Assembly: GCA_025964625.1 (NCBI GenBank)
Contig: JAOPYL010000224.1
Coordinates: 1-32,602, forward strand
DNA: 32,602 nucleotides
From: Actinoallomurus sp.
GTDB taxonomy: Bacteria; Actinomycetota; Actinomycetes; Streptosporangiales; Streptosporangiaceae
Direction: 5' to 3'
Part shown: one piece after another, positions 2,914-30,677 of the stretch
How the letters are laid out: the number at the start of each line of letters is the position of its first letter
Numbering within the stretch: position 1 is the stretch's first letter
The notes under the pieces: generated by a model
The model's database searches: none
What the model was told of the DNA's origin: nothing
What the model saw: only the letters and a program-made list of their open reading frames with translations
Made by a program: the position numbers and the translations under genes

Positions 2914-2979
2914 ACTGTCAGAAGCATTGTCTGTTTTAGTACACTCCGGACGCAAGCTTGCGACGCCATGCTTCTCAGT
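2914..2979. promoter_or_regulatory. Operator-like inverted repeat between ligase and racemase genes
   Basis: ACTGTCAGAAGCAT (2914-2927) is answered on the other strand by ATGCTTCTCAGT (2968-2979); the arms match except for a two-base bulge. Between them sits a perfect 12-bp palindrome, CGCAAGCTTGCG (2951-2962). The element lies in the only intergenic space shared by the divergent ligase and racemase genes, so a regulator acting on both is a reasonable inference. The octamer TGTCAGAA recurs at 23945 and 24069. Confidence 0.5.
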
Positions 2980-3049
2980 ACGGCCATGGCGGACCCAGGC
3001 TTACATAGACCCAGAGTCAGATATCCGCCCACCCGTACGAGGAGGAGCA

Positions 3050-4174
3050 GTGTCGGACCAAGCGGACACCGGCCCGGCGCGGGGACCGCTCGCGGGGACA
3101 CGGGTCGTGGAGCTGGCGGGCGTGGGTCCCGGTCCGCACGCGGCCATGCTTCTCGCCGACCTCGGCGCCGACGTGATCCTCGTGCGGCGCCCGGGAACCG
3201 AGCGAGATCCCGGCCCGCAGCACCGGGGCCGCCGCCTCGTCGAGGCCGATCTGAAGGACCCCTCCGGCCGGGACGCGGTCCTCGCCCTGGTCGCCCGTGC
3301 CGATGTGCTCATCGAGGGATTCCGGCCCGGGGTGACCGAGCGGCTCGGGCTCGGCCCGGACGACTGCGCGGCGCGCAACCCCGGGTTGGTGTACGCGCGC
3401 ATGACCGGCTGGGGCCAGGCCGGGCCGCTGGCCGACAGCGCGGGCCACGACATCAACTACATCGGCCTCACCGGGGTGCTGCACGCGATCGGGCGTGCGG
3501 GCCAACCGCCGGTGGTGCCGTTGAACCTGGTCGGCGACTTCGGCGGCGGATCGCTGTACCTCGTGCTGGGCGTACTCGCCGCGCTGGTCGAGCGCCAGCG
3601 GTCCGGCCGCGGCCAGGTCATCGACGCGGCGATCATTGACGGTACGTCCAGCCTGGCGCACCTGATCTGGGCGTTGCGCGGCGACGGACGATGGCGCGAC
3701 GAGCGCGGTACGAACCGCCTAGACTCCGGCGCCCCGTTCTACGACGTGTACGAGACCTCGGACGGCGGCTACATGGCCGTGGGTGCGCTGGAACCCCGGT
3801 TCTACCGGGAGTTCGTGACCCTCCTCGAGCTGGATCCGGCGCAGCTCCCGCCGCAGAACGAGCCCGAGGGCTGGCCGGCCCTGCGCGCGATCTTCGCCCG
3901 CGCCTTCGCCACGCGGACCCGTGACGAGTGGGCCGCGGTGTTCGAGGGCACCGACGCCTGCACCACGCCCGTGCTCGCCTTCGACGAGGTCGCGACGCAC
4001 CCCCACCTGGCGGCCCGCGAGGCGCTGATCGACGTGGACGGCGTGGTCCAGCCCGCGCCCGCCCCTCGCTTCTCCCGCACACCGGCACCGACGCCCCAGG
4101 CGCCGCCACGCGCCCCGGTCGCCATCGACGCCGTTCTGGCCGACTGGGCGCGAACCCGGGCTGAAACCCGATGA
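3050..4174 (+). CDS. Alpha-methylacyl-CoA racemase (family III CoA-transferase fold)
   Basis: This 374-residue protein should interconvert 2R- and 2S-methylacyl-CoA, the step that lets branched or steroid/isoprenoid side chains enter S-specific beta-oxidation. It opens with the CaiB/BaiF motif ([11 protein letters not shown]) and carries [19 protein letters not shown] and GALEPRFY. H133, D163 and E248 keep the same spacing as the catalytic His126/Asp156/Glu241 of the mycobacterial enzyme Mcr (30 and 85 residues apart, as I recall them), which favours racemase over CoA-transferase. GTG 3050 is chosen because GAGGAGGAG lies just upstream; the frame is open to 2927. The stop overlaps the next start (ATGA). 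It is the first gene of a racemase/ACAD/DUF2889 operon. Confidence 0.9.
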
Positions 4175-5385
4175 GCCCCGATACCGACGGAGTGTCCATG
4201 CCGACGACCGACGAGGCCGATGCCCTTCCGACCGGCGCCTGGGAGCTGCCGGAGGAGTTCCGCCTGCTGGTACAGACCGTGCGGCAGTTCATGGAATCGG
4301 AGGTCCGCCCGCTGGAGGACGCCCTCGACCACGACGCGGCCGGGCCACCGCCGGGGTTGCTCGCGCCGTTGCAGGAAAAGGCCCGCGCGCTCGGGCTGTG
4401 GGCGTTGCAGACGCCGGCCGAGTACGGCGGCGCCGGGCTGAGCATGCTCGGGCAGGTCGTCGTCGCCGAGGAGGCGGCGAAATGCCGGATGGGCGCGTTC
4501 TTCCCGGCGGCGGGCGCGTTCGGCGGCAACCCGCCCAGCGTGATGTACCAGGCGACACCCGAGCAGTTCGAGCGCTACGCCCGCCCCATCATCGAGGGCA
4601 AGGCCGGCAAGGCCTACACCGCGATCAGCGAGAGCTCCGGCGGCTCCGATCCCGCGCGCGCCATCCGCTGCCGCGCCGAGCGTCAGGGCGACCACTACGT
4701 GCTCAACGGCACCAAGCTCTGGACCAGCCACGCCGCCACGGCCGACTGGGGCGTCATCTACGCGCGCACCGGCGAGCAGGGACAGCGCGACGCCATCAGC
4801 TGCTTCATCGTCGAGCGTGACACTCCCGGCCTGAGCATCGTGCCCATTGGCGTCATGAACTCCTTCTCCCCGTCGCAGCTGCACTTGGAGAACGCGCGGG
4901 TCCCGGTGGCCAACCGCGTCGGTGAGGAAGGCGCCGGCTTCCAGCTGGCCTCGGACTTCCTCGTGCGCGGCCGCATCCTCTACGCGGCGGGCCCGATCGG
5001 CATCGCCCAGCTCGCCCTGGAGATGGCGGTCGACTGGGCGAAGGAACGCGAGGTGTTCGGCTCGCGGCTGGCCGACAAGCAGGGCATCCAGTGGATGCTG
5101 GCGGACAGCGAGATCGAGCTGCGGGCGGCACGCCTGCTCACCTACCAGGCGGCCTGGAACGCCGACCTCGGCCGCGATGTCCGCGTCGACGCGTCGGTCG
5201 CCAAGCTGTACGGCACCGAGACCGCGTTCCGCGTCCTCGACCGCTGCGTACAGATCTTCGGCGCTCTCGGGCTGTCCCAGGAGATGCCACTGGAGCGCTG
5301 GTTCCGGGACCTGCGTGTCAAGCGGCTCGGTGAGGGCGCGACCGAGGTACAACGCATGGTCGTCGCCCGCGACCTGCTCAGGTAA
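4171..5385 (+). CDS. Acyl-CoA dehydrogenase
   Basis: This 404-residue FAD enzyme introduces a 2,3 double bond into an acyl-CoA. It has the usual N-terminal helical, central beta and C-terminal helical domains. The flavin/substrate loop appears as [16 protein letters not shown], followed by [12 protein letters not shown] and, near the C-terminus, [15 protein letters not shown]. There E388 aligns with the catalytic Glu376 of medium-chain dehydrogenase. ATG 4171 overlaps the racemase stop (ATGA); a second ATG at 4198 has its own GGAG and would remove nine residues. Its position directly after a methylacyl-CoA racemase suggests that it oxidises the racemised 2-methylacyl-CoA (inference). Confidence 0.92.
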
Positions 5386-6047: not shown

Positions 6048-7310
6048 TCAGCCGCTCTTGGCGAACAGGGTTCCCGCGTTGATCACCTGGTAGTTCGACA
6101 GCGTGCCGTTCGTGGACGCGTCGGCGAGGAGCCCGTTGGAGCTGCAGACGTTCGCCGACAGCGGCACCGCCTTGCCGTTGCACTGGAAGGTGGCGCCTCC
6201 GCTCAGCGGGTAGGGCACGGGCGGGGCGGACTTCACCGCGGCCTCCAGGCCTGCGGCCGAGGTGTCCTTCACCTTGGCGGCGTTCAGCACCCGGACCAGC
6301 CCGAGCGTCACGGCGTAACCGATGCCGGGGATCGATGCGGGCTTGGTGCCGCCGGCGTACTGGCCCAGAGCCGCCTTGAAGACCTTGTACTCCTGGTCGG
6401 CGGGGTTGAATTCCAGGGTCGAGATGACCTTGACCCCCTTGTACCCACCGGGTATCGACGCGCTCGCGCCCGAGTTCACGCAGGTCTCCGCGACCAGGAT
6501 GGTGGCCTTGACCCTGAGGGTCCGCATGGCCTTCAGCGCGCTGGTACAGAAGGTCGCGTCGCCGAGCATGCTGTACATCTGCGGGTTCTTCTTCTGGGCG
6601 GCCTGGATCTGCGGCGTCATGTCGGCGGTGCCCGGCGCGATCGGCAGGACGTTGTAACCGACGCCCGCCTTGCCGAACAGCAGGCCGCCGACCTGCTGGG
6701 CCGGTCCGCTGGCGCCGGGGACGTCGATGACGACCTCCGTCGCCCGCTGGTAGCCCTGCTGTTTCGCATAGGCCGCCGGGGTGCTGAAGTAGTTGACGGC
6801 GTTGGTCATCGAGAAGACGTGCGGTTTGGTGAGCGCGAGCGCCGACGATGCCTGGGAGTAGAACTCCGGGATGTTCGCCGCGGACAGCACCGCGATGGCC
6901 TGGTCGGCCTGCGCCAGAGTGCCGCCGAGCACCGCGGACGCCTTGGCGGTGACCATCTGGTTCGCGCAGGCGGTCGCCTGCGCGGCGACGTTCTGCGTCG
7001 AGCAGACCTTCAGCTGGATGGTGTGGCCGTTGATCCCGCCGAGATGGTCGTTGGCGTACGCGACCGCCGCCTGCGCACCCTTGATCTCGTCCGTCTGGTC
7101 GACGGCGGTGCCCTTGCCGTCACTGATCATCCCCAGCACGACGGGACTGCCGGCGGCCTTGTTCTGGGCGCCGAGTACTTTCGCCGCGTCGGCCGTGGTG
7201 GCCGAGTTGTCCGTTGAGCTGTTTCCGCAGGCGCTGACCAGCAGCACCAGCACGGTGAGCAATGTCGGCAGGGCGACACGGACACACCGTTGTCTGGACC
7301 CGACTCGCAT
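6048..7310 (-). CDS. ABC transporter substrate-binding lipoprotein (LivK-type, Peripla_BP_6)
   Basis: This 420-residue extracytoplasmic solute receptor belongs to the Liv-type importer encoded just upstream. It has a basic N-terminus, a hydrophobic stretch and a lipobox (VSAC, lipidated C28), followed by a Ser/Thr/Asn-rich linker. The mature part has the two-lobe LivK pattern: VVLGMISDGKG, a run containing AQAAVAYANDHLGGINGH, and VLGGTLAQADQAIAVL. Extra cysteines suggest disulfides. Such receptors bind branched amino acids, amides or aromatic and dicarboxylic acids. In this setting an aromatic or aliphatic acid is more likely than leucine (inference). It is the last gene of the transporter operon, after a hairpin that may set its level apart from the membrane parts. 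Confidence 0.9.
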   Translation of the reverse strand: MRVGSRQRCVRVALPTLLTVLVLLVSACGNSSTDNSATTADAAKVLGAQNKAAGSPVVLGMISDGKGTAVDQTDEIKGAQAAVAYANDHLGGINGHTIQLKVCSTQNVAAQATACANQMVTAKASAVLGGTLAQADQAIAVLSAANIPEFYSQASSALALTKPHVFSMTNAVNYFSTPAAYAKQQGYQRATEVVIDVPGASGPAQQVGGLLFGKAGVGYNVLPIAPGTADMTPQIQAAQKKNPQMYSMLGDATFCTSALKAMRTLRVKATILVAETCVNSGASASIPGGYKGVKVISTLEFNPADQEYKVFKAALGQYAGGTKPASIPGIGYAVTLGLVRVLNAAKVKDTSAAGLEAAVKSAPPVPYPLSGGATFQCNGKAVPLSANVCSSNGLLADASTNGTLSNYQVINAGTLFAKSG

Positions 7311-7325
7311 TTTCGGTGGACCTTT

Positions 7326-7364
7326 CGTCGTTTCTTCGACGGGGCGGACCGTTCAGGCCGCCCC
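7326..7364 (-). terminator. Tandem hairpins at the livF stop, before the binding-protein gene
   Basis: GGGGCGG (7341-7347) pairs with CCGCCCC (7358-7364) across the LivF stop codon, with two more inner pairs. Next to it CGTCG (7326-7330) pairs with CGACG (7337-7341). Neither is followed by a T-run on the minus strand, so partial termination or 3'-end/5'-end mRNA protection between livF and the receptor gene is more likely than a full stop. The function is inferred. Confidence 0.4.
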
Positions 7365-8081
7365 GTCCTCGGCACCACCGAGATAGGCGGCTTCGAGCCT
7401 CCGCCGGTCGGCGGCGAGTTCGGTCGCGGCGCCTCGAAGAGTCACATCGCCGTGGACCAGGACGATCGCCTCGTCGGCGACCTCCAGTGCCAGCCGGACA
7501 TGCTGTTCGACCAGGACGACCACGGCGCCGGTCTCGTCGGCGATGCGCCGTACGACCGGCAGGAGGTCCTCGACGATCACCGGGGCCAGCCCCATGCTCA
7601 TCTCGTCGATCAGCAATACCTTCGGCTTCTGCACGAGGCCGCGTGCGACCGCGAGCATCTGTTGCTCACCACCGGACAGCGCGCCCGCGCGTACTCCGAG
7701 CCGCTTGGCGAGCGCGGGGAACATCTCCAGGACGTCGTCGATCGAGGGGGCGCCGGAGCGCCGGGCGATCACGAGGTTCTCCCGCACGGTGAGTGTGGTG
7801 AACAGGGCGCGGTCGTCGGGCACCAGTACCAGGCCGGACCGGTTCGCCGATCGTGGCCGGCCCTTGGGCAGTGGGTGGTCGTCCACCAGGACCTCGCCGC
7901 CGATGCTCGGCAGCAGCCCGGCGAGGGTGCCCAGCAGCGTCGTCTTCCCGGCGCCGTTGGGACCGAGTACGGCGAGTACGGTGCCGTGCGGGACGGCCAG
8001 GTCCAGCGGGCGCAGAACCGGCACCGAACCATGACCGGCGACCAGGCCCCGGCATTCGAGGGCGGCGGGCGCGGCGCTCAT
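7353..8081 (-). CDS. livF: ABC transporter ATP-binding protein, LivF type
   Basis: This 242-residue cytoplasmic ATPase powers the branched-chain-type importer together with the ATPase domain of the fused protein. It shows Walker A GPNGAGKTT (residues 40-48), the signature LSGGEQQ (135-141), Walker B VLLIDE (155-160) and the switch histidine in VEQHV. After the Walker B glutamate the usual Pro of DEP is Met (DEMSMGLAP), which is common in LivF. The ATG overlaps the stop of the fused permease gene (ATGA), so the two are translationally coupled. It lacks the longer LivG-specific C-terminal part. The symbol reflects family membership, not a proven leucine substrate. Confidence 0.92.
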   Translation of the reverse strand: MSAAPAALECRGLVAGHGSVPVLRPLDLAVPHGTVLAVLGPNGAGKTTLLGTLAGLLPSIGGEVLVDDHPLPKGRPRSANRSGLVLVPDDRALFTTLTVRENLVIARRSGAPSIDDVLEMFPALAKRLGVRAGALSGGEQQMLAVARGLVQKPKVLLIDEMSMGLAPVIVEDLLPVVRRIADETGAVVVLVEQHVRLALEVADEAIVLVHGDVTLRGAATELAADRRRLEAAYLGGAEDGAA

Positions 8082-10816
8082 GCCGAGGCCTTCTCACCGG
8101 GGGTGCCGCCGAGGTAGGCGTCGGCCACCTCGCGGTCGGACCTGATCTGCGCCGGTGTGCCGGAGGCGATGAGCCGTCCGAAGTTGAGCACGTGGATCTG
8201 GTCGCAGAGGCCCAGCACGAGGCTCATGTCGTGGTCGACCATGATGATGGTGACCCCGCTGTCCCGTATCACCTTCAGCCGTTCGCCGAGCCAGGCACTC
8301 TCGGCGGTGTCCAGGCCGCCCGCCGGCTCGTCGAGGAGCAGCAGCCTGGGCTCGCCGGCCAGCGCCCTGGCGATCGACACGAGCTGACGCTGCCCCTGGG
8401 ACAGCTCACCCGCGGGACGCCCGGCCAGCCGCGTCAGCCCGAGGAGCGCGAACGTGCGCCGCAGCGCCTCGTCGGGCGGATGCCGGCGCCGGCCGTGTGA
8501 CGCGGTGAGCCCGACGGCCACGTTCTCGGCGACGGTCAGGTCGTCATAGAGCTCCAGCGACTGGAACGTACGACCGAGCCCGGCGCGGACCCGCCCGTGG
8601 GGCGGCCGGCCCGCCAGCGGTTCGCCGTCCAGGCTCACCGCGCCGGTGTGCTCGGCGAACCCGCTGATCGCGTCGAGCAGCGTGGTCTTGCCGGCCCCGT
8701 TGGGACCGATCAGCCCCACGATGCTTCCCTCCGGGACGTCGAAGCCGACGCCGTCGACGGCGACCACGCCGCCGTAGCGCACCCCGAGGTCACGGACGAC
8801 CAGCAGGTCCGGCCGGCCGTCCGGCTCGCCGCGCGTGGCCGGGACGGCCGTCGGAGGTGGGGGCTCCTCGGCGTCCGGGGACTCCCGTCGCGCGCGTACG
8901 GCGGCGAGCTTCTGGTGCGCGGGCCCGACGATGCCCTCCGGATTCATGATCACGGTCAGCACCAGCAGCACGCTCGAGACGACCGTGTACCAGCCGCCGG
9001 TCCCCACCAGCTTGTCGATGACGACGAACAGCAGGCCGCCGGAGGCGGAGAACCCCGCGAGGACACCGCCCGACACCGAGGTGATGCCGGTGAGGTAGAC
9101 GGTGGCGAACAACGTCAGGCCGGAGACCGCGGAGAAGGCGTCGTAGGTGACGGTCCGCTGCTGGTAGGCCAGCAGGGCGCCGCCGAGACCCGCGATGAAG
9201 GCCGCGACGGCGAACACGATGATCTTGACGCGTACGACGTCGACCCCGGCGGCCGCGGCGGACCGTTCGTTGGCGCGGACGGCCAGCAGCTGGGAGCCGA
9301 GTCCGCTGCGCCGCAGGGCGGCGACGCCGATCGCGACGGCGACCAGGACGAGCAGACACAGGATGCCGAACGTGATCCGGGGATAGCCGAGGCCGCTGCC
9401 CACGCCCAGCTTCCAGCCGAACAGGGACGGGTCCGCGACCGCTACCCCCGAGCTGCTGACGAAGTCGAGGTTCCGGAACCAGAACGCCTCCAGCGCGAAG
9501 GCGAGCGCCAGCGTGACGACCGCGACGGGCAGGCCTCTGATCCGCAGGGCGGGCAGCCCGACCAGCACCCCGAGGACGGCCGCCGCGAGCGCGGCGGCAA
9601 GGGGTGCGAGTGGGAACGGGATGTGCAGGTCGTGGCCGAGCGGCCCGAGCAGGAAGCCGGCGGCGCCGGCCAGGGTCAGCTGAGCGAGCGACAGCTGGCC
9701 GGCGTACCCGCCGACCACGACGATCGAGAGCGCGATGATGGCCATGATCAGGCTGACGATCAGCCCTTCGCGCAGCCGATCGTGCAGCACGACAAGGGCG
9801 ACCACAACGACGACCACGCTGCCCGCGGCCGTGGGCACCACGCGCCGCGGTCTCGGTGCCCGGCCCAGCGTCCGCAGGATGAGCGCGCCGCGGGTCGGCA
9901 GCGGCCGTGCCCGCACCACGAGCACGAGCATGATCAGGATCAGCGGCACGAGCTCCGGCAGGCCGGACCGGGGCAGCCAGCCGAACTGGTTCTGCAGGTA
10001 CTGCGCCTCCGACTGGAGCATGCCGATCAGCAGCCCGGCGGCGGCCGCGACGAACACCAGCTGGAACCGGGCGAGGATCGCCGCGGCCAGAGCGGGCACG
10101 ATGAACAGCGTGTACGCCAGGGGGACCAGCGGAACGATCGGCGCGATGAGGATGCCGGACAGGCCGGCAATCGCCGAGCTGAGCATCCAGTTGTAGGCGG
10201 CGACGCGGTCCGGCGAGATGCCGCTGACGTAGGCGCCGCGTTCGGTCTCGGCGGCCGCCCTGGTGGCCAGGCCGAAGCGGGTGAAGCGGAAGGTCAGTGC
10301 CAGGAGCGCCGCCACGGCGAGGATCGTGAGCGCGAAGTAGGCGCGGTCCGAGGACATCTGCAGGCCGCCGAGCTGCCACAACGAGGTCGGGAAGATCGGC
10401 TGGACGGGGACCGGGGTGGTACCGAGCACCTGCGCGACGATGCCGCTCACCACCAGTGAGACGCCCAGCGCCGCGACCGCCTTGGCGACCGGGGGTGCGG
10501 TCCGCAACGGCCGGAAGATCAGAACGTAGAGGACCAACCCGAAGAGCGCGGACACGACGAGCGTCGCCGCCATGGCCGGGAACAGACCGAGTGGGTGCCC
10601 GATCCCGACGGTCGCGGGCAGGCCGGGGATCAGCAGGAGCAGGCGGCCCTGGCGGAGGAACGCGTACACGTACGCCGCGTGCAGTGCGATGGCGCTGGTG
10701 CCGAAGTTGAGCACTCCGGAGCTTCGATAGGTCAGGACGAGGGCGAGCGCCAGAGCCCCGAACACGGCCCCGTTCCCCAGTCCGAGCAGGAGAAAAACCG
10801 CGTTGGTCATCGTCAA
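8078..10816 (-). CDS. Fused LivH-LivM-LivG: two permeases and one ATPase in a single ABC transporter chain
   Basis: This 912-residue protein joins three normally separate subunits. Residues about 1-305 are a LivH-type permease (LTYRSSGVLNFGTSAIAL near the start). Residues about 335-640 are a LivM-type permease (GGYAGQLSLAQLTLAGAAGF and the GVDVVRVKIIVFAVAAFIAG loop). After a charged, proline-rich linker (about 645-665) comes a LivG-type ATPase with Walker A GPNGAGKTT from residue 704, signature LSQGQ near 802, Walker B LLLLDEP and HD switch. The LivG domain also has the GLGRTFQ Q-loop. GAGG lies 6 nt before ATG 10816. No internal stop or frame change was seen, so the fusion is real in this sequence. 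The arrangement would fix a 1:1:1 ratio of subunits. Confidence 0.92.
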   Translation of the reverse strand: MTMTNAVFLLLGLGNGAVFGALALALVLTYRSSGVLNFGTSAIALHAAYVYAFLRQGRLLLLIPGLPATVGIGHPLGLFPAMAATLVVSALFGLVLYVLIFRPLRTAPPVAKAVAALGVSLVVSGIVAQVLGTTPVPVQPIFPTSLWQLGGLQMSSDRAYFALTILAVAALLALTFRFTRFGLATRAAAETERGAYVSGISPDRVAAYNWMLSSAIAGLSGILIAPIVPLVPLAYTLFIVPALAAAILARFQLVFVAAAAGLLIGMLQSEAQYLQNQFGWLPRSGLPELVPLILIMLVLVVRARPLPTRGALILRTLGRAPRPRRVVPTAAGSVVVVVVALVVLHDRLREGLIVSLIMAIIALSIVVVGGYAGQLSLAQLTLAGAAGFLLGPLGHDLHIPFPLAPLAAALAAAVLGVLVGLPALRIRGLPVAVVTLALAFALEAFWFRNLDFVSSSGVAVADPSLFGWKLGVGSGLGYPRITFGILCLLVLVAVAIGVAALRRSGLGSQLLAVRANERSAAAAGVDVVRVKIIVFAVAAFIAGLGGALLAYQQRTVTYDAFSAVSGLTLFATVYLTGITSVSGGVLAGFSASGGLLFVVIDKLVGTGGWYTVVSSVLLVLTVIMNPEGIVGPAHQKLAAVRARRESPDAEEPPPPTAVPATRGEPDGRPDLLVVRDLGVRYGGVVAVDGVGFDVPEGSIVGLIGPNGAGKTTLLDAISGFAEHTGAVSLDGEPLAGRPPHGRVRAGLGRTFQSLELYDDLTVAENVAVGLTASHGRRRHPPDEALRRTFALLGLTRLAGRPAGELSQGQRQLVSIARALAGEPRLLLLDEPAGGLDTAESAWLGERLKVIRDSGVTIIMVDHDMSLVLGLCDQIHVLNFGRLIASGTPAQIRSDREVADAYLGGTPGEKASA

Positions 10817-10905: not shown

Positions 10906-11138
10906 CAACTTGCCGCAACCGAGATCGAACGGGAGTGGCCGCAAGCCACGAGATCCACGGATGAGGCATCAACTTCGCTGCTGGAAGCACGATTTAGATC
11001 TGAACCGGTCCGTACGCCGACGAGAAGGCCCCCTGGCGCGTCCGACCTCGAGCCTGACTGATTTGTATACACGCTGCCAGAAGTAGCCGACCGAAGACGG
11101 TTCTGATCGCCGAGACAGGCCCATGGGCATCCATGGTT

Positions 11139-11183
11139 CTCACCAGTGAGTGTTGCAGTCTCCCATAAGAGAACGTTATTCTC
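11139..11183 (+). promoter_or_regulatory. Leaderless promoter with two operator dyads, kinase operon
   Basis: The -35 TTGCAG (11153-11158), an 18-nt spacer and the -10 TATTCT (11177-11182) lie 6 nt before GTG 11189, so transcription should begin at or next to the start codon; no Shine-Dalgarno is present. Dyad 1 is CTCAC-CA-GTGAG (11139-11150). Dyad 2 is GAGAA-N5-TTCTC (11169-11183), which covers the -10. The same arrangement is found at 16806-16850, next to the TetR gene, which makes that TetR the obvious candidate repressor. Confidence 0.7.
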
Positions 11184-11188
11184 CGACC

Positions 11189-12229
11189 GTGAGCAACGAA
11201 CCCACGGCGACCCACCAGGGCCTCGATGTGTCCCTGCTGGACCGGTGGCTGGCCGTACAGGACGTGCCGGGCGGGGACGGCGAACTGGCGGTCACCCAGA
11301 TCTCCGGCGGGTCGCAGAATCAGCTCTACGAGCTGCGCCGAGGCGACACGCGCCTGGTCCTGCGCGCCGCGCCGAGCCATGCCTCTCCCGAGCGCGGGCG
11401 GAGCATGCTCCGCGAATACGAGTTCCTGCGCGCCCTCGCCGACACCGACGTGCCCCACGCCCGCGCCTACGCGGCCTGCGGCGATCCCGGCATCCTGGGC
11501 CAGCCGTTCTACGTGATGGACCACGTCGACGGCTGGTCACCGATGCAGGGTGGGTGGGCGGCGCCGTTCGACACCGACCTCGATGCGCGAGCCGGCCTCG
11601 CCGTGCAACTCGTCGACGGCATCGCCCGGCTCGCCCGGGTGGACTGGAAGTCGCTCGGCCTGGACGGATTCGGCCGGCCCGACGGCTTCCATGACCGCCA
11701 GGTGGACCGCTGGCTGTCCTATCTGGCCCGATACCGGTTCCGCGAACTGCCCGGGCTCGACGTGGCGGCCGACTGGCTGCGCACGCACCGGCCCCGCGCG
11801 TACGAGCCGGGCATCATGCACGGGGACTACCAGTTCGCCAACGTCATGTACGCGAACGGCGCGCCCGCCCGCCTGGCCGCGATCGTGGACTGGGAGATGG
11901 CCACCATCGGGGACCCGCTCCTCGACCTCGGCTGGACCCTGATCGCATGGTCGCCGGAGGGCGACGACATGGTGCGCTCCCGTTACCTCGACTACGCCGG
12001 GATGCCGCCGAGGGACGACCTGCTCGAGCACTACGCCACGGTCAGCGGCCGGCCCGTCGACGACATCGACTACTACGTCATCCTGGCCCGCTTCAAGCTC
12101 GGCATCGTGCTGGAGCAGAGCGTGGCGCGCGTCGCGTCGGGCGGGGACGACCCACGTGTCTCGGCCTTCGACGGCATCGTGCTGGAACTCATCCGCAAGG
12201 CCGCGGAGCTGGCAAGGAGCACGCCATGA
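11189..12229 (+). CDS. APH-family phosphotransferase, probable hydroxyacyl-CoA kinase (LvaA/ACAD10-11 kinase type)
   Basis: This 346-residue cytoplasmic protein has the aminoglycoside-phosphotransferase (APH) kinase fold. The nucleotide-binding loop is near ISGGSQNQLYELR. The catalytic HGDYQFAN motif has H211, D213 and N218, and the metal-binding DWEMATIGDPLLDLGW starts at D234. The DWE.ATIGDP form is typical of kinases linked to ACAD10/11-like dehydrogenases, which phosphorylate the hydroxyl of 4-hydroxyacyl-CoA so that a partner ACAD can eliminate phosphate. GTG 11189 fits the leaderless promoter; an ATG at 11150 would place the operator inside the gene. It overlaps the next gene by 4 nt. 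True antibiotic phosphotransfer is unlikely in this operon. Confidence 0.85.
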   Translation: MSNEPTATHQGLDVSLLDRWLAVQDVPGGDGELAVTQISGGSQNQLYELRRGDTRLVLRAAPSHASPERGRSMLREYEFLRALADTDVPHARAYAACGDPGILGQPFYVMDHVDGWSPMQGGWAAPFDTDLDARAGLAVQLVDGIARLARVDWKSLGLDGFGRPDGFHDRQVDRWLSYLARYRFRELPGLDVAADWLRTHRPRAYEPGIMHGDYQFANVMYANGAPARLAAIVDWEMATIGDPLLDLGWTLIAWSPEGDDMVRSRYLDYAGMPPRDDLLEHYATVSGRPVDDIDYYVILARFKLGIVLEQSVARVASGGDDPRVSAFDGIVLELIRKAAELARSTP

Positions 12230-12993
12230 CCATCCCCGCACCCTTCGACCGGTTCGACCTCACCGGGAAGGTCGCGCTCGTGACCGGCGGCAGCCGGGGG
12301 CTCGGTCGCGAGATGGTCCTCGCGTTCGCCGCCGCCGGCGCCGACGTCGTCATCACCAGCCGCAAAGTGGAGTCGTGTGAGGTCCTCGCCCGCGAGGTGA
12401 CCGAGCGGACCGGCCGCGCCGCACTCCCCTACGGTTGCCACGTCGGCCACTGGGACGAGCTCGACGGGCTCGTCGCGGCGGCGTACGACCGGTTCGGCAA
12501 GGTCGACATCCTGGTGAACAACGCCGGCATGTCGCTGCTGTACGACGAACCGACCGACGTGACCGAGAAGATGTGGGACAGCGTCGTCAACCTCAACCTC
12601 AAGGGTCCGTTCCGGCTCACCGCGCTGGTGGGGCAGCGGATGGTCGAGCACGGCGGTGGCTCCATCATCAACGTGAGCAGCACCGGCTCGATCCGGCCGA
12701 CGCCCAACATCCTGCCGTACGCCGCCGCGAAGGCCGGCCTCAACGCCATCACCGAGGGGTTCGCCCAGGCGTTCGGCCCGACGGTACGGGTGAACTGCCT
12801 GATGGCGGGCCCGTTCTTCACCGACATCAGCAAGGCATGGGACCTCGAACGCGTCAACGAGGGGTTGCAGAGCCACGCGTTGCGCCGGGGCGGCCGGCCG
12901 GAGGAGATCATCGGGGCCGCCCTGTTCCTGGCCGGCGACGCGTCCAGCTTCACCACCGGCGCCGTCCTCCGCGCTGACGGCGGCATTCCCTGA
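12226..12993 (+). CDS. Short-chain dehydrogenase/reductase (SDR)
   Basis: This 255-residue classical SDR has the cofactor motif TGGSRGLG (residues 20-27), NNAG, a serine in INVSSTGS and YAAAK as the Tyr/Lys pair. It lacks the insertion of mycofactocin-coupled SDRs. The ATG overlaps the kinase stop (ATGA), with AAGGAG 7 nt upstream. In the lva pathway an SDR interconverts the 4-oxo- and 4-hydroxyacyl-CoA that the kinase uses, so this gene may serve that role or oxidise the 3-hydroxyacyl-CoA product. That assignment is by analogy of gene content; the substrate is not visible in the sequence. Confidence 0.88.
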   Translation: MTIPAPFDRFDLTGKVALVTGGSRGLGREMVLAFAAAGADVVITSRKVESCEVLAREVTERTGRAALPYGCHVGHWDELDGLVAAAYDRFGKVDILVNNAGMSLLYDEPTDVTEKMWDSVVNLNLKGPFRLTALVGQRMVEHGGGSIINVSSTGSIRPTPNILPYAAAKAGLNAITEGFAQAFGPTVRVNCLMAGPFFTDISKAWDLERVNEGLQSHALRRGGRPEEIIGAALFLAGDASSFTTGAVLRADGGIP

Positions 12994-13015
12994 TCGCACA
13001 AGGAGAGCTCCTGCC

Positions 13016-14320
13016 ATGGCATGGGACTTCAGCACAGAGCCCGAATTCCAAAAAAAACTCGACTGGGCCGACGCGTTCGTCCGCGAGGAGGTCGAACCGC
13101 TCGACCTCGTCTGGCCCGCCCCCTTCAACTACCAACCCCTCACGCCCGAGCGCCGCAAGCTCGTCGAACCGCTCAAGCAGGCGGTGCGTGAGCAGGACCT
13201 GTGGGCCTGCCACCTCGGTCCGGAACTGGGCGGCAAGGGCTATGGGCAGCTCAAGCTGGCGCTGCTCAACGAGATCCTCGGCCGCTCCACCTGGGCGCCG
13301 GTCATCTTCGGCACCCAGGCTCCTGACACCGGCAACGCCGAGATCATCGCGCATTTCGGTACGCCAGAACAGAAGAAGCGTTACCTGGATCCGTTGCTCA
13401 ACGGCGAGATCTTCTCCTGTTACTCGATGACGGAACCCCAGGCGGGTGCCGATCCGGCCATGTTCACCACCCGCGCGGAGCGGGACGGCGACGGCTGGGT
13501 CATCAACGGGTGGAAGTTCTTCTCCTCCAACGCGCGCTGGGCCGAGTTCCTGATCGTGATGGCCGTGAGCGACCCGGACGCCGGGGCGTACCGGGGAATG
13601 TCGATGTTCCTGCTCCCCCGGTCGACACCCGGCGTGAAGATCGTCCGGAACGTGGGCCTGATGGGCGAACCGGCCGAGGACGGTTCACACGCCCTGATCC
13701 ACTACGACAACGTCCGGGTCCCCGCGGACGCCCTGCTGGGTGCGGAGGGCGGCGCGTTCGCCGTGGCCCAGACCCGGCTCGGTGGCGGCCGGGTGCACCA
13801 CGCGATGCGCACCGTCGGCGTCGCGCAGCGCGCACTGGACATGCTGTGCGAGCGGGCGCTCAGTCGCTACACCAAGGGTTCCGTACTCGCCGACAAGCAG
13901 AAGGTGCAGGAGTACATCGCCGACTCCTACGCCCAGCTGGCGCAGTTCCGGCTGTTCGTGCTGAACGTCGCCTGGCAGATCGATCGGTACCAGGACTACA
14001 AGAAGGTGCGCATGGACATCGCCGCGATCAAGGTGCTCGCCCCGACCGTGCTGCACGACATCGTCCAGAGGTCCATGCAGGTGCACGGCGCGCTCGGCGT
14101 GTCAAACGAGCTGCCGCTGGCCCACATGTGGGTGCAGGCACCTGTGATGGGCCTGGCGGACGGCCCGACCGAGGTGCACAAGGTCACGGTCGCACGCGAG
14201 GTGCTGAAGGGCTACGAGCCGGTCGACTCCATCTGGCCGTCGGAACACGTGCCGACCAGGCTGGCCGCGGCCAAGGCCAAGTTCGCCGCCGCCCTCGAAC
14301 TCGAGATCGGCGACCTCTGA
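13016..14320 (+). CDS. Acyl-CoA dehydrogenase, ACAD10/11 (LvaC) type
   Basis: This 434-residue flavoprotein resembles the dehydrogenase half of ACAD10/11. It has CYSMTEPQAGADP for flavin contact, INGWKFFSSNA, the loop AQTRLGGGRVHHAMRTVG, and GLADGPTEVHKVTVAR near the C-terminus. At the usual catalytic-Glu position the residue is Asp (D382), as in the ACAD10/11 group, whose members can act on phosphorylated hydroxyacyl-CoA. The C-terminal tail is longer than in ordinary ACADs. A GGAG precedes the ATG at 13016, and the gene follows the SDR by 22 nt. Together with the kinase it forms the two-part machine expected for converting a gamma-hydroxyacyl-CoA to an enoyl-CoA (inference from family). Confidence 0.9.
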   Translation: MAWDFSTEPEFQKKLDWADAFVREEVEPLDLVWPAPFNYQPLTPERRKLVEPLKQAVREQDLWACHLGPELGGKGYGQLKLALLNEILGRSTWAPVIFGTQAPDTGNAEIIAHFGTPEQKKRYLDPLLNGEIFSCYSMTEPQAGADPAMFTTRAERDGDGWVINGWKFFSSNARWAEFLIVMAVSDPDAGAYRGMSMFLLPRSTPGVKIVRNVGLMGEPAEDGSHALIHYDNVRVPADALLGAEGGAFAVAQTRLGGGRVHHAMRTVGVAQRALDMLCERALSRYTKGSVLADKQKVQEYIADSYAQLAQFRLFVLNVAWQIDRYQDYKKVRMDIAAIKVLAPTVLHDIVQRSMQVHGALGVSNELPLAHMWVQAPVMGLADGPTEVHKVTVAREVLKGYEPVDSIWPSEHVPTRLAAAKAKFAAALELEIGDL

Positions 14321-15129
14321 ACGCCCCGCCGGGCGAGGGCCGGACGGCGTTCGAGTTCGCGGGGAAGGTCGCCGCCGTCACCGGCGGCGCCAGCGGCATC
14401 GGGCTCGCGCTCGCCGAGCGTCTTGCCGCGGAAGGCTGCCAGGTCGCCGTCGCGGACGTGAACCCCGAGCGGCTCGCCGAGGTACGGCGGCGACTGCCCG
14501 GCGCCCTGACCGCGGCGGTCGACGTCGCGGATCCGCGCCAGGTCCAGGACTTCGCGGACCGGACGGCGGAGCGGTACGGCGCCGTGCACCTCGTCTGCGC
14601 GAACGCCGGGATCATTGGGCCGGCGGGCGACCGGCTGTGGGAGGTCTCGGACGACGAGTGGCGGCAGGTGGTCGACGTGAACCTGCTGGGCGTGGTCGCC
14701 ACCCTGCGGGCGTTCGTCCCCTTGCTGCTGCGGACTCCCCCCGGCCACGTGGGCATCACCGCGTCAATGGCGGCGGTGACGACCACGGCCACGATGCCCG
14801 CCTACTACGCCACCAAGCACGCGCTCCTATCGGTCGCGGACACGCTGCACCGCCAGTTCGTACGGGACGGGCTGGACGTGGGCGTCAGTGTGCTGCTGCC
14901 AGCGCAGGTCACCACGAATCTCGGGGAGTCACTGACCGGCGTGGACCGGCCGGGCAACCCCCGGGGGATCAGCCCCGAGGAGGTCGCCACCCGATTCGTC
15001 GAGGCGGTGCGGTCCCGCACACTGCACGTGTTCACCCATCCCGGTTCGACCGGGCTGGCCAGGGCGCGCACCGACGCGATGCTCGCCGAGGCCGGTGGCC
15101 CTGCCGGGCGGTCGGCCGGCGCCGGCTGA
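14317..15129 (+). CDS. Short-chain dehydrogenase/reductase with no canonical start codon
   Basis: This SDR of about 270 residues has TGGASGIG for cofactor binding, CANAG in place of NNAG, serine in ITASMAAV and YYATK for Tyr/Lys. Its frame contains no ATG, GTG or TTG between the end of the ACAD gene and the cofactor motif, and none close upstream. The best start is CTG 14317-14319, which overlaps the ACAD stop as CTGA and would be read by translational coupling. The first canonical codon downstream (GTG 14459) would delete the nucleotide-binding motif. Its stop abuts the stop of the convergent MDR gene with no base between. The dehydrogenase fold is certain; the start is not. Confidence 0.8.
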   Translation: MNAPPGEGRTAFEFAGKVAAVTGGASGIGLALAERLAAEGCQVAVADVNPERLAEVRRRLPGALTAAVDVADPRQVQDFADRTAERYGAVHLVCANAGIIGPAGDRLWEVSDDEWRQVVDVNLLGVVATLRAFVPLLLRTPPGHVGITASMAAVTTTATMPAYYATKHALLSVADTLHRQFVRDGLDVGVSVLLPAQVTTNLGESLTGVDRPGNPRGISPEEVATRFVEAVRSRTLHVFTHPGSTGLARARTDAMLAEAGGPAGRSAGAG

Positions 15130-16176
15130 TCACGAGCCGACGTCGACGACCACCTTGCCCAGCGCGCGCCGGTCCGCGACGAAGCGGAGGGCGGCGGCCC
15201 CTTCCGCGAGCGGAAAGTGCGCGCCGATGTGCGGCACGACCCGGCCGGCGGCGAACAGCTCCAGCACTTCCTCGCGGTCCCGTCGCTCCCGCTCGGGGTC
15301 GTGGTCGCCGAAGGTGCGCAGCTCGATGCCCTTGACGGTGATCCCCTTCAGGAGCACCAGGTTGAGCGGGATCGCGGGGATCGCACCGGAGGCGTACCCC
15401 AGCGTGACGAACGTGCCGCCCCACCGGATGCTGCGCAGCGCCCGCTCCGACCACTCGCCACCGACCGGGTCGATCACCGCGTGCGCGCCGCCATCGGTCA
15501 GTTCGCGGATCCGCAGGCGCAGGTCCTCGGTGGTGTAGTCGATGACGTGGGTCGCGCCGTGCGCGCGGCACAGGGCGAGCTTCTCGGCACCGGACGCGGC
15601 CGCCACCACGCGGGCGCCCAGCTCTCTGGCCAGGTCCACCGCCGCCAGCCCGACGCCGCCGGCCGCGCCGAGCACGACGACCCAGTCCCCTGGGCCGACC
15701 CCCGCGGCCGAGCGCAGGGCGTGGTAGGCGGTGCGGTAGGTGACGCCGAACGCGGCCGCCTCGGCGAAGTCGGCGCCGGGGGGCATCGCCGCCAGCTGGC
15801 CGGCGGGTACGATCGCCCGCTCGGCGAAGGCGCCGACCGGCACCGTGCCGAACACCAGGTCGCCGCGCCGGAACGCCGTCACGCCGGCCCCCACCGCGAG
15901 CACCTCCCCCGCGAGTTCGCTGCCCGGTACGAACGGCAGCGGCACCGGCACCTGATAGGCGCCTGCGACCAGCAGGACGTCGGGGAAGTTGACGGCGGCG
16001 GCCCGCACGTCCACCAGAACCTCACCCACACCTGGGACCGGGGTGGGCATCTCCTCGACGGCGAGTTCTTCAGGCGGACCGTACCGCCGGCAGACCAGGG
16101 CACGCATCGGGGCAGGCCCGGAACCCGGCCCGTGGCCGGCGGATGTGCCGGCCGCGGCTTTGACGTCAGAGGTCAT
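15130..16176 (-). CDS. NADPH:quinone reductase-like MDR-family oxidoreductase
   Basis: This 348-residue protein belongs to the zinc-independent medium-chain dehydrogenase/reductase family. It has a GroES-like N-terminal half (AAAVNFPDVLLVAGAYQ, FVPGSELAGEVLAVG) and a Rossmann half with VLGAAGGVGLAAVDLAREL. It lacks the zinc-ligand cysteine cluster of alcohol dehydrogenases. Members reduce quinones, enones or enoyl-CoA with NADPH. ATG 16176 is chosen; it overlaps the TetR gene end by 11 nt. GTG 16188 upstream and ATG 16107 (MRALVCRRYG) are alternatives, the last matching the usual family start. Being co-transcribed with the TetR repressor, it should be induced with the regulon. Confidence 0.87.
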   Translation of the reverse strand: MTSDVKAAAGTSAGHGPGSGPAPMRALVCRRYGPPEELAVEEMPTPVPGVGEVLVDVRAAAVNFPDVLLVAGAYQVPVPLPFVPGSELAGEVLAVGAGVTAFRRGDLVFGTVPVGAFAERAIVPAGQLAAMPPGADFAEAAAFGVTYRTAYHALRSAAGVGPGDWVVVLGAAGGVGLAAVDLARELGARVVAAASGAEKLALCRAHGATHVIDYTTEDLRLRIRELTDGGAHAVIDPVGGEWSERALRSIRWGGTFVTLGYASGAIPAIPLNLVLLKGITVKGIELRTFGDHDPERERRDREEVLELFAAGRVVPHIGAHFPLAEGAAALRFVADRRALGKVVVDVGS

Positions 16177-16801
16177 CAGCGCTTCCACCGCCGTCCGGGC
16201 GGACGGCGTTCAGGCAGAACGCGATGAGGTGCTCGGTGTCGCCCGGTGCGGGCCGGGTGTCCAGCGCCATGTGGCGGCGCAGGACACCGAACACGGTCGC
16301 GAAGACCACGTCGGTGTCGCGCCGGGGATCGGCGCTGCCCAGGTCGGTGATCGGCGCGAGCAGACGATCGTGCAGGGTCCGCGTGACCTGCTCCTCGGCG
16401 AGACGCCGCTCCGCGGTCGCCGCGAGCTGGGCGGTGACGGCCCTGCTGGCGTTGGCCAGCTCAGGATCGCCGACCTGCGCCAGCACACCCCTGATCCAGC
16501 GGGCCAGTCGCCGGGCCGGCTCGTCCTCCTTGGCCATCTGGTGGTCGAGATAGGACGCCACGAGCCCGACCCCGCGCTCCATCACGGCGAGGATCAGGTC
16601 GTCCTTGCCGGTGAAATAGCGGTAGAACGCCTTGTTGGACGTCCCGGCCTCGGCGACGATATCGCTCACCCTCGGCGCGGCGGGCGCCACGCGCTCCATC
16701 ACCGTCACGGCGGCGGCGAGGATGCGTTCGACCTCCTCGGTCGCCTCCCGCTGGCGCTCGTCCAGCGCCCGCTCCACGGCCGCGGCCACACGGGAATTCA
16801 T
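16166..16801 (-). CDS. TetR-family transcriptional repressor, probable regulator of the twin operators
   Basis: This 211-residue protein has an N-terminal helix-turn-helix (VSDIVAEAGTSNKAFYRYFTGKD, about residues 45-67) and an all-helical ligand domain. Upstream of the usual TetR helix 1 is a charged stretch (ALDERQREATEEVERIL). ATG 16801 has GGGGAGAACC before it; ATG 16831 further upstream lacks a ribosome site. It is divergent from the tandem CoA-transferase gene across 54 nt containing two dyads, which are repeated before the kinase operon at 11139-11183. Autoregulation and control of both operons, with an acyl-CoA or substrate as ligand, is the simplest model (inference). Confidence 0.88.
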   Translation of the reverse strand: MNSRVAAAVERALDERQREATEEVERILAAAVTVMERVAPAAPRVSDIVAEAGTSNKAFYRYFTGKDDLILAVMERGVGLVASYLDHQMAKEDEPARRLARWIRGVLAQVGDPELANASRAVTAQLAATAERRLAEEQVTRTLHDRLLAPITDLGSADPRRDTDVVFATVFGVLRRHMALDTRPAPGDTEHLIAFCLNAVRPDGGGSADDL

Positions 16802-16805
16802 GGTT

Positions 16806-16850
16806 CTCCCCTGGGAGGATTGCAATCTCAAAGGTGAGAATAATACTCTC
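16806..16850 (+). promoter_or_regulatory. Leaderless promoter with two operator dyads, TetR/CoA-transferase divergon
   Basis: The -35 TTGCAA (16820-16825), an 18-nt spacer and the -10 TACTCT (16844-16849) lie 6 nt before GTG 16856, with no ribosome site. Dyad 1 is CTCCC-CT-GGGAG (16806-16817), which overlaps the TetR leader. Dyad 2 is GAGAA-N5-CTCTC (16836-16850), which covers the -10. Spacing is identical to the kinase promoter at 11139-11183. Confidence 0.7.
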
Positions 16851-16855
16851 GCGGT

Positions 16856-19126
16856 GTGAAACCCAGCATCGGTATCGGCCCGTTCGGCGACCTACGGATC
16901 CTGGAACTGAGCACGGGCATCGCGGGCCGCACCGCCGGGATGCTCCTGGCCGAGTTCGGCGCCGAGGTGGCCCGGGTCCTCCCGCCGGGCGGCCAGGAGT
17001 CTCCCGACGACCCCAGAAGCCTGTGCTGGGATCGCGGCAAGATCCTCGCCGAGATGGATCAGGCCGATCCCCGGGCCATCGCCGAGCTGCGCCGCCTGGT
17101 CGACGCCTGCGATGTCCTCCTGACCGATGTCGGCCCGGACGAGCTGGACCGCCTCGGCCTCGACGCGGCGACCGCGCTGGAGCGGTCCCCCGGCCTGGTC
17201 CACGTGTGGCTCCCGCCGTACGGCGCGCGCGGCCGGTGGAGCACCCTGCCCGAGGACCCGCTGCTGCTCGCCGCCCTCGGCGGTTTCGCCGCGCACCACC
17301 CCGCGACCGAGGACCAGCCCGTGGCCCCGGTCGTGCCAACGGTCAACTACCTGCAGGGTGCGCTCGGCGCCACCGCGGTCGCGGCCGCACTCGTCGGCCG
17401 GGCCACCGACGGGGCGGCGCGGGCGGTCACCGTCACCGGGCTGCACGCCATGGCGGCCGCGCAGGGCACCATGATGCTGGAGGGCCTCGACGTCGACCGG
17501 ATCTATGCGGTCGGCAAGATCCTGGGCGGGGCGCCGAACTTTCGGGCCTATCAGGCGAGGGACGGGCAGTGGCTCTATCTCGCCGCGCTCACCCCGGACT
17601 TCTTCTTCCGCGCGCTGGACGTCCTCGGCCGTATGGAGGTTCTGGTCCGGACCGACGTCGCCGGGGAGTTCACCAACATCCTCGTCCCGGAGACCGGCCA
17701 GGCGGTCGGAGCCGAGCTCGCGGCGGTGTTCGCCGAACGGCCCCGCGCCGAGTGGCTCCGCGTGCTGGCCGACGCCGGAGTGCCGGCCGCGCCGGTCTCC
17801 CGGCGGGAGGACTGGATGGCCAGCGAGGTGGTGTCGGCCAATGACGCCCGAGTCGACCTGGACCATCCCACCCTCGGCCCGGTAGTCCTGCCCGGTGTCC
17901 CGGTCGCACTGTCCGCGACGCCGGGGACCGCGGGCGTCCCGCCGTCCGGAGACCGCGTCCCGGCTTCGGCACTCTGGCGTGCCACAAGCCGCGCCGAGGC
18001 ACCGGTCGGACGCTCCCGCGAGCTGCCCCTGACGGGCCTGCGCGTGCTCGACCTGTCCACTTTCCTGGCGGGCCCGTTCGCCGGTTCTCTCCTGGCCGAC
18101 CACGGCGCCGAGGTGGTCAAGGTCGAGGCGCCGGGAGGCGACCCGTACCGCACCTACTCCGCGGCCTACACCGCGGTGAACCAGGCCAAGTCCGGGATCA
18201 CCCTGGACCTCCGGCGGCCCCAGGGGCGCGACGCGCTGCTCCGGCTGGTCACCGATGCGGACGTCCTCGTCGACAACCTGCGCCCGGGGAGCCTGGACCG
18301 GCTCGGGCTGGGCGCGGAGATCCTCGCGGCCGCCAATCCCGCGCTGGTCCGCTGCTCGGTGTCCGCCTACGGCCGGACCGGGGCGTGGGCCGACCAGCCA
18401 GGGTTCGATCCGGTCGTGCAGGCGTTGAGCGGACTGATGGCCGCGCAGGGTGGTGCCGGCGCGCCAGTGGCGACCACCGCGCCCGTGCACGATGCCACGA
18501 CCGGCACCCTCGCGGCGTTCGGCGTGCTCGCCGCGCTGCTCGCCAGAACGCGTACCGGCCGGGGCCAGCACGTGACGACCTCGCTGGCCGCCGCGTCGAC
18601 CTTCCTGCAGTCGGCCGAGCTGACCTCCTTCGCCGGCCGGCCGCCCACGGCCGAGGGCGGCCGGGACTTCCCGGGACCGACCGCGTACCACCGGCTCTAC
18701 CGCGCCGAGGACGGCTGGCTCGCGACGGCGGCGACCACCCCGGCGCAGCGGCACGCCCTGCTGCGGGCGCTCGGCCAGGACGACCCGTCCACTGCGGACG
18801 ACGACGAGGGGCTCGCCGCGCGGCTGGAGGACGTGCTGGCCACGCGCCCGGCCGACGAGTGGGTGGACGTCCTGGGCGCGCACGAGGTGCCGGCGTGCCG
18901 GGTCCTGTCGGCCGAGGCGGAGCTGCACAATCCGTTTCTGGTCGAGAACGACTTCTCCCATGTCGTCGACGATCCTGTGCTGGGGCGGCTGCGGGTGGTG
19001 CGGTCCTACGCGGAGTGGCGCGAGTCCGACCCGCCCCGCCCGCCGGCCGAGATCCCCGGCCCGCCCTACGCCGAGGTGTGGCGGGACCGCACCGCGTCGT
19101 CGCCCGGCGGTCAGCGGAAGTCGTAG
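16856..19126 (+). CDS. Tandem family III CoA-transferase (CaiB/BaiF), N-terminal copy lacking the catalytic Asp
   Basis: This 756-residue protein contains two full CaiB-like units, about residues 8-355 and 389-745. The C-terminal unit has the standard opening LTGLRVLDLSTFLAGPFAG, VVKVEAPGGDPYR and the active-site block APVHDATTG with D546. The N-terminal unit opens similarly (FGDLRILELSTGIAGRTAG), but the matching block reads PTVNYLQG, placing Asn (N164) where the Asp should be. It therefore probably serves a structural role, since family III enzymes work as interlocked dimers and a tandem chain can mimic one. Its job would be to move CoA from a donor thioester to the pathway acid. The leaderless GTG start follows a TetR-type operator. 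Confidence 0.9.
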   Translation: MKPSIGIGPFGDLRILELSTGIAGRTAGMLLAEFGAEVARVLPPGGQESPDDPRSLCWDRGKILAEMDQADPRAIAELRRLVDACDVLLTDVGPDELDRLGLDAATALERSPGLVHVWLPPYGARGRWSTLPEDPLLLAALGGFAAHHPATEDQPVAPVVPTVNYLQGALGATAVAAALVGRATDGAARAVTVTGLHAMAAAQGTMMLEGLDVDRIYAVGKILGGAPNFRAYQARDGQWLYLAALTPDFFFRALDVLGRMEVLVRTDVAGEFTNILVPETGQAVGAELAAVFAERPRAEWLRVLADAGVPAAPVSRREDWMASEVVSANDARVDLDHPTLGPVVLPGVPVALSATPGTAGVPPSGDRVPASALWRATSRAEAPVGRSRELPLTGLRVLDLSTFLAGPFAGSLLADHGAEVVKVEAPGGDPYRTYSAAYTAVNQAKSGITLDLRRPQGRDALLRLVTDADVLVDNLRPGSLDRLGLGAEILAAANPALVRCSVSAYGRTGAWADQPGFDPVVQALSGLMAAQGGAGAPVATTAPVHDATTGTLAAFGVLAALLARTRTGRGQHVTTSLAAASTFLQSAELTSFAGRPPTAEGGRDFPGPTAYHRLYRAEDGWLATAATTPAQRHALLRALGQDDPSTADDDEGLAARLEDVLATRPADEWVDVLGAHEVPACRVLSAEAELHNPFLVENDFSHVVDDPVLGRLRVVRSYAEWRESDPPRPPAEIPGPPYAEVWRDRTASSPGGQRKS

Positions 19127-30623: not shown

Positions 30624-30644
30624 CCGGTGCCGGGTACCGGTTTT
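30624..30644 (+). terminator. Weak hairpin with T-run after the amidohydrolase gene
   Basis: CCGGT (30624-30628) pairs with ACCGG (30636-30640) over a 7-nt loop and is followed directly by TTTT. The stem is short, but its position 13 nt past the stop and the T-run favour a terminator separating this operon from the MftR-like gene. Confidence 0.35.
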
Positions 30645-30677
30645 CCTTCGCGGGCACGGCCGGGTCATGGCAGCCTG

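Follow-up and report, generated by a model that had tools for sequence, protein, structure and literature searches.

Contig JAOPYL010000224.1 of the Actinoallomurus sp. assembly GCA_025964625.1 (host genome of 5.84 Mb, rated 95% complete) was analyzed over its entire 32,602 bases, here called the window, and carries a gene for a TetR-family regulator (tetR) among genes for the handling of acyl-CoA compounds. tetR is read leftward together with a gene for an MDR-family quinone oxidoreductase, a tandem CaiB-like CoA-transferase is read rightward, and a second rightward group encodes a kinase, a short-chain dehydrogenase (SDR1), an acyl-CoA dehydrogenase (ACAD), and another short-chain dehydrogenase (SDR2) (Table 1). 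Two similar promoter regions lie at these genes, S1 on the kinase side (11132-11191) and S2 on the tetR/caiB side (16799-16858), and both contain a palindrome, dyad 2, that is very probably the operator of this TetR protein, as judged from its conservation around relatives of the regulator.

The resemblance of S1 and S2 was the core of the initial annotation. Direct comparison confirmed the ungapped identity of 40 of 60 bases, and the promoter elements lie where they had been placed: a -35 box TTGCAG (11153-11158) or TTGCAA (16820-16825), an 18-nt spacer, a -10 box TATTCT (11177-11182) or TACTCT (16844-16849), and a GTG 6 nt further on (11189 and 16856), with no Shine-Dalgarno sequence on the + strand of either promoter. 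Dyad 2 spans both -10 boxes, as described there, and its two copies differ at one arm base. Two features of tetR had been overlooked, namely a Shine-Dalgarno sequence ahead of its start codon and a -10-like box on the - strand within dyad 2. The argument that the similarity is not due to chance held only in part. Self-comparison of the window gave 20 diagonals that reach 40 matches; the S1/S2 diagonal ranks about sixth, with 42 matches in a frame 10 bp upstream (best frame from 11122), and in four first-order random resamples, 2, 0, 1, and 0 diagonals had 40 or more matches. The identity stands, but as sole proof of twin promoters it was rejected, since too many diagonals in the window equal it, and the argument therefore has to be carried by the relatives.

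Relatives of the window TetR were found at 169 loci, the best 80 of which (1.16 Mb) were used. They include species of Mycobacterium, Nocardia, Frankia, and Actinomadura, and the nearest named one among the matches is the metagenome-assembled genome Actinoallomurus sp. RYN_221 (locus L064), whose TetR is 90% identical. The exact pattern AGAA-N5-TTCT occurred 98 times, in 67 of these 80 loci, compared with 2, 5, and 4 occurrences of three control palindromes. In a comparison set of 22 loci with other TetR genes of weak similarity (73,881 bases), it was not found, whereas the matching count around the 80 relatives was 55 sites (41 loci) in 283,409 bases. When sites no more than about 170 bp from a kinase, ACAD, SDR, or MDR gene (at least 45% identical to that of the window) were tabulated, 59 of the 80 loci contributed 60 gene rows. 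For instance, 18 mycobacterial loci carry GAGAA(T/C)G(C/T)TATTCTC immediately ahead of a kinase-SDR-ACAD-tetR-MDR operon. Furthermore, a weight matrix built from 93 sites, all outside the window, placed operator B (the name used below for dyad 2) of S1 and S2 first and second among all window positions. The kinase promoter of one genome (G003) did not enter the comparison, its contig stopping inside SDR1 and its best kinase match being only 43% identical. The expectation that dyad 2 would be conserved upstream of orthologues in related genomes was thus borne out. A palindrome in a regulator's own promoter and in neighboring promoters that is conserved along with the orthologues is what a TetR autorepressor is known by, and by this conservation, autoregulation together with control of the MDR, CoA-transferase, and kinase/ACAD genes, as first proposed, appears to be the best reading.

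The sites recur at a fixed distance from one another. A further site scoring above 0 lies exactly 21 bp away from 28 of the 98 sites in each direction (mean at other offsets, 0.1), and when one mismatch was allowed, 33 pairs at 21 bp were counted, against 2 at equal spacing in a reversed control. Among the 42 non-mycobacterial rows, 24 have another operator, matching the core at 6 or more of its 8 bases, 21 bp upstream, and none has one at 20 or 22 bp. In the same rows, TTGC stands at a spacer of 18 nt in 14 and at none of the spacers 14-17 and 19-22, while TTG alone is found at spacer 18 in 17 rows and at spacer 17 in 3. The -10 box TATTCT is present in 53 of all 60 rows, though its last four letters are set by the search, so that TA alone is informative. 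In the mycobacterial rows, GAGA occurs at the downstream 21-bp phase in 18/18 with six drifting bases in between, which lends moderate support to the phasing. By these patterns, S1 and S2 would share one layout, in which operator A surrounds the TTGCA of the -35 box, operator B holds the -10 box, and a half-site (operator 0) lies upstream. The two-operon regulon of the initial annotation gives way to three likely transcription units, kinase-SDR-ACAD-SDR, tetR-MDR, and CaiB, since tetR-MDR runs leftward and has a start of its own.

The window TetR has a TetR_N domain (PF00440, E 5.7e-11) and an AlphaFold model (pLDDT 93) with the all-helical TetR fold. The best fold matches of this model are FadR proteins, with the DNA-bound KstR (5fmp) at rank 12, and a PDB sequence search gave weak matches only, to assorted TetR proteins. 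The similarity to the FadR and KstR folds supports, by analogy, a putative acyl-CoA inducer. Residue 57, in the predicted recognition helix, is Lys in 22, Gln in 24, and Asp in 35 of 81 TetRs. Half-sites that accompany Lys57 are flanked by G in 42 of 44 cases; those with Asp57 carry A in 42, C in 47, and G in 27, and those with Gln57 carry G in 12, A in 11, C in 12, and T in 3. Lys57 requires at least two changes on the tree, and one locus from Myxococcota (L139, TetR at 416-1015) gained it separately; its sole site, near 297, is the G-flanked GAGAATAGTATTCTC, and no kinase or ACAD was found at the cut-offs on its short contig. These two origins are suggestive, not proof, of a preference of Lys57 for a flanking G. 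The Gln57 TetRs of L086, L093, L094, L046, and L004 adjoin AGAA-N6-TTCT sites that lie 22 bp apart; with N6 at 22 bp and N5 at 21 bp, the gap between operators is therefore constant. Seven N5 pairs break this rule by lying 22 bp apart, and some loci in the N4/N5/N6 pair scan are likely one organism counted twice.

In five of the 60 outside rows (L084, L085, L087, L089, and L090), 6-7 nt separate the site from the start codon behind it, and the same spacing is found in L064 (GTG, 7 nt) and L004 (ATG, 6 nt, with an N6 site). In the remaining rows, the nearest start is mostly farther off, frequently behind a stretch resembling AGGAG, as read by eye. Leaderless starts are therefore plausible for a subset that includes the window, not for the whole family.

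The enzymes next to the operators point to a substrate class. The PDB search matched the kinase to 3dxp (E 3e-45), 9o56 (E 1e-44), and ACAD11 (8v3v, E 7e-31), which places it close to the ACAD10/11 kinases, and the best structure matches of the ACAD are 4hr3 and ACAD11. In the alignment, LADGPTEVH of the window ACAD corresponds to LADGPDEVH of ACAD11 (8v3u) and to YEGTNQIQ of an ordinary ACAD (8i4p), with Asn in the same column of ACAD11 entry 8v3v; the Asp in place of Glu that distinguishes the ACAD10/11-LvaA/LvaC type is thus found in the window. We take this aligned Asp column to be the catalytic residue of ACAD10/11-type enzymes. A special catalytic aspartate is described for such enzymes (PMC12440821). 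A role in the breakdown of 4-hydroxyacyl-CoA is suggested because of this pairing of kinase and ACAD.

Table 1. Genes and promoter-operator features of the window. Matrix, weight matrix built from sites outside the window.
Feature	Position	Strand	Remarks
Operator 0, half-site, S1	11127..11141		GCATCCATGGTTCTC; good only in right half TTCTC; 21 bp upstream of operator A; top 1.5% by matrix; weak
Dyad 1 of S1	11139..11150		CTCACCAGTGAG; junction of operators 0 and A
Operator A, S1	11148..11162		GAGTGTTGCAGTCTC; degenerate; surrounds TTGCAG -35; exactly 21 bp from operator B; matrix rank 30
Operator B (dyad 2), S1	11169..11183		GAGAACGTTATTCTC; contains -10 TATTCT; matrix rank 1
Kinase, aminoglycoside-phosphotransferase fold, ACAD10/11 kinase/LvaA-like	11189..12229	+	PF01636; PDB 3dxp, 9o56, 8v3v; GTG start 6 nt past -10, without Shine-Dalgarno
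Short-chain dehydrogenase 1 (SDR1)	12226..12993	+	PF13561
Acyl-CoA dehydrogenase (ACAD), ACAD10/11/LvaC-like	13016..14320	+	Asp in LADGPTEVH where ordinary ACAD has Glu
Short-chain dehydrogenase 2 (SDR2), start putative	14320..15129	+	PF00106 in open frame
MDR-family quinone oxidoreductase, PIG3-like	15130..16188	-	overlaps tetR end
TetR-family regulator (tetR)	16166..16801	-	PF00440; AGGGGAG ahead of ATG 16801; predicted recognition helix 56-62, Lys57
Operator 0, half-site, S2	16794..16808		GAATTCATGGTTCTC; overlaps tetR start codon and Shine-Dalgarno; top 0.25% by matrix
Dyad 1 of S2	16806..16817		CTCCCCTGGGAG; junction of operators 0 and A
Operator A, S2	16815..16829		GAGGATTGCAATCTC; surrounds TTGCAA -35; matrix rank 7; L064 counterpart GAGGATTGCGGTCTC
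Operator B (dyad 2), S2	16836..16850		GAGAATAATACTCTC; + strand -10 TACTCT 16844-16849; - strand TATTAT for tetR 16845-16840; matrix rank 2
CoA-transferase family III, tandem two-domain, CaiB-like	16856..19126	+	PF02515, two stretches; GTG 6 nt past -10

Operator conservation, phasing, promoter overlap, linkage to this TetR family, and the ACAD10/11 type of the enzymes were computed here. Taken as a whole, they are best explained, with a probability of roughly 85%, by the TetR protein acting as a local autorepressor on 21-bp-phased GAGAA-N5-TTCTC operators that overlie two probably leaderless promoters and from which a ligand releases it. In such a switch, TetR dimers would occupy operator A at the -35 box and operator B at the -10 box, plus the upstream half-site, and being two helical turns apart on the same face of the DNA, they would block RNA polymerase. 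Without ligand, transcription would be off for three units: the kinase-SDR-ACAD-SDR group starting at 11189, the leftward tetR-MDR pair starting at 16801, and the tandem CoA-transferase gene starting at 16856. An acyl-CoA that belongs to the pathway would free the repressor; a 4-oxo- or 4-hydroxyacyl-CoA is the probable ligand. The enzymes may act in the order in which CaiB loads CoA, an SDR reduces, the kinase phosphorylates, and the ACAD eliminates the phosphate, and the resulting enoyl-CoA would enter beta-oxidation. We are only slightly more inclined to accept than to doubt the broader view that a patchy, wide-ranging TetR subfamily, unnamed as far as searched, governs bacterial 4-hydroxy acid catabolism of the ACAD10/11 type through a composite promoter-operator locked at 21 bp, with a preference that shifts with residue 57 and one clade at N6/22 bp in which the gap is kept constant. 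Literature searches, which included the operator consensus strings and left subscription papers and regulon databases outside their scope, gave no recognized description of the window regulator.

Several observations weigh against the autorepressor reading. The exact N5 site is absent from 13 of the 80 loci; L064 has one mismatch, L073 ends before the promoter, and L086, L093, and L094 have the N6 form; the other eight (L088, L091, L092, L115, L117, L122, L128, and L138) fit none of these cases. Neither a kinase (48% cut-off) nor an ACAD (57%) was found in the fetched DNA around 15 of the 80 TetR relatives. The distribution of the regulator is patchy: of 341 genomes in the family, 20 have a relative at E 1e-18, and of 396 sampled genomes in the phylum, 12 have one at E 1e-30, with the own genome included in both counts. 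Since the relatives share ancestry, site counts are not independent, and the half-sites that pair Lys57 with G come mostly from one mycobacterial clade of close relatives, two origins in all. When one mismatch was allowed, enrichment was smaller, with 219 sites vs 129, 192, and 132 for the controls, and therefore the exact form alone discriminates well; in the host genome, one-mismatch GAGAA-N5-TTCTC occurred 98 times per strand vs 48 in a control. An upstream operator is absent from all mycobacterial rows (0/18), as is TTG(C) at spacer 18, and the support drawn from their downstream GAGA is held at moderate because bases further downstream are well conserved as well. Within the window, operator A of S1 is poor compared with that of S2. 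Binding and repression by the TetR protein, their cooperativity, the inducer, the substrate, and the leaderless starts are what we infer.

Three other explanations were weighed. The initial annotation read dyads 1 and 2 as two independent binding sites and regarded dyad 1 (CTCAC-CA-GTGAG in S1, CTCCC-CT-GGGAG in S2) as proven by arms that changed together. Its sequences are as described, and pairing is complete (5/5) in S1 and S2 and 4/5 in L064, each comparison having one pair changed on both sides; the joint change, however, amounts to a single base pair (A-T vs C-G), so that the claim is weak. In the 12-mer of L064, CTCCATTTCGAG, the pair that varies between S1 and S2 is a broken C-C, the next pair having become A-T. 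The outer CTC and GAG, moreover, are the facing halves of adjacent 21-bp-phased operators, and the mycobacterial loci retain TTCTC and GAGA in 18/18 with six drifting bases in between. CTCAC-CA-GTGAG is thus better read as the TTCTC of one operator facing the GAG of the next; dyad 1 was set aside as an independent, co-varying site in favor of such an array junction, and its standing as a separate dimer site is improbable. It is extremely unlikely that S1 and S2 are alike simply because the tetR-caiB control region (S2) was copied to the kinase operon (S1), with no regulatory meaning under selection. The similarity does reach into the first tetR codons from the best frame onward (GGG.AT.CATGG; 11122-11141 and 16789-16808), which hints at a duplicated control region, and duplication may be the origin of the second promoter copy, but many other species likewise have the operator, phasing, and -10 box ahead of a kinase or ACAD gene.

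Another regulator or a sigma factor could also have shaped the motif in place of the window TetR, and KstR, which recognizes AGAAC-N2-GTTCT, is one candidate. Its half-sites are likewise AGAA/TTCT and overlap the -10 box (PMC1995591), as does the motif in the window, and its DNA-bound structure is a fold neighbor of the window TetR. The spacing differs, however. The KstR operator TnnAACnnGTTnnA has N4 between AGAA and TTCT, whereas the window sites have N5 and those of the relatives N5 or N6; only 12 exact N4 sites, and no pairs of them, were found at the scanned loci. Against the NCBIfam equivalog model of KstR, the window protein scored 22.3 bits, with a cut-off of 280. The motif instead tracks the relatives of the window TetR, being absent from the 22 other TetR loci, and its flank varies with the recognition-helix residue of the accompanying TetR. 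Such an explanation is accordingly very improbable, and the local TetR autorepressor is retained as the preferred reading.

The extent of the regulon was followed in the host genome, where the exact tandem pattern has three matches; two are S1 and S2, and the third falls within an open frame on contig C89 that, read by eye, presumably encodes an ABC-transporter ATPase; with one mismatch there were 10 matches over both strands vs 2 in the control. A wider regulon drawn from one-mismatch single sites was dropped, their number being too large to interpret, and no distant target is claimed, because single sites are too many and the exact tandem pattern adds only one in-frame place. Within the fetched flanks, L064 and L086 are the only loci with CaiB (at least 45% identical) near TetR, so the membership of CaiB appears special to few lineages. 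Other genomes of the genus share palindromic stretches like TCTC-AACGATGAGAA (G005:C25:65025-65060, G003:C221:11411-11446, G006:C1:957300, and G002:C1:1238316), which are possibly the site of another regulator or coding sequence.

Outside the operator array, the window has another family III CoA-transferase gene with an acyl-CoA dehydrogenase behind it (2927-5385). At 6048-10816 lies a branched-chain-amino-acid-type ABC transporter cluster, in which a single 912-aa frame combines the permease and ATPase domains. A further TetR gene is located at 30627-31328; its product is a different regulator whose C-terminal domain is of the MftR type (PF17754).

The sites described here provide a concrete operator for an apparent regulator of 4-hydroxy acid breakdown in actinobacteria, a function to which the mammalian ACAD10/11 were assigned only lately (PMC11342911; PMC12440821). 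The pairs of TetR and operator also form a natural data set on the joint change of recognition helix and operator, and the regulator could become a biosensor for 4-hydroxy or 4-oxo acids.

The TetR autorepressor is of a known general kind, and the type of switch is ordinary. The lva operon for levulinic acid has accessory genes that differ from those of the window, and to our knowledge its regulator LvaR is not a TetR protein. The likeness to lva and to ACAD10/ACAD11 lies in a kinase together with a special-Asp ACAD acting on 4-hydroxyacyl-CoA (PMC11342911; PMC12440821), an activity predicted from sequence for the window. KstR is described as a TetR repressor of cholesterol catabolism in mycobacteria with an autoregulated lipid-degradation regulon (PMC1995591), and shares with the window regulator the fold and the half-sites over the -10 box, while its spacing and targets are different. 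BkaR (Rv2506/MSMEG_4718) is likewise an autoregulatory TetR protein next to a divergent catabolic operon of the acyl-CoA type, with two palindromes in one promoter region (PMC3920632); its palindrome GTTA(N)T(N4)A(N)TAAC is, however, unrelated, and 21-bp phasing is not known from it. Two TetR-family dimers binding cooperatively to one control region are described for QacR and CprB (PMC4150764). Those dimers contact a single 22-bp element from its two opposite sides, whereas the dimers predicted for the window would occupy operators lying side by side, with centers 21 bp apart.

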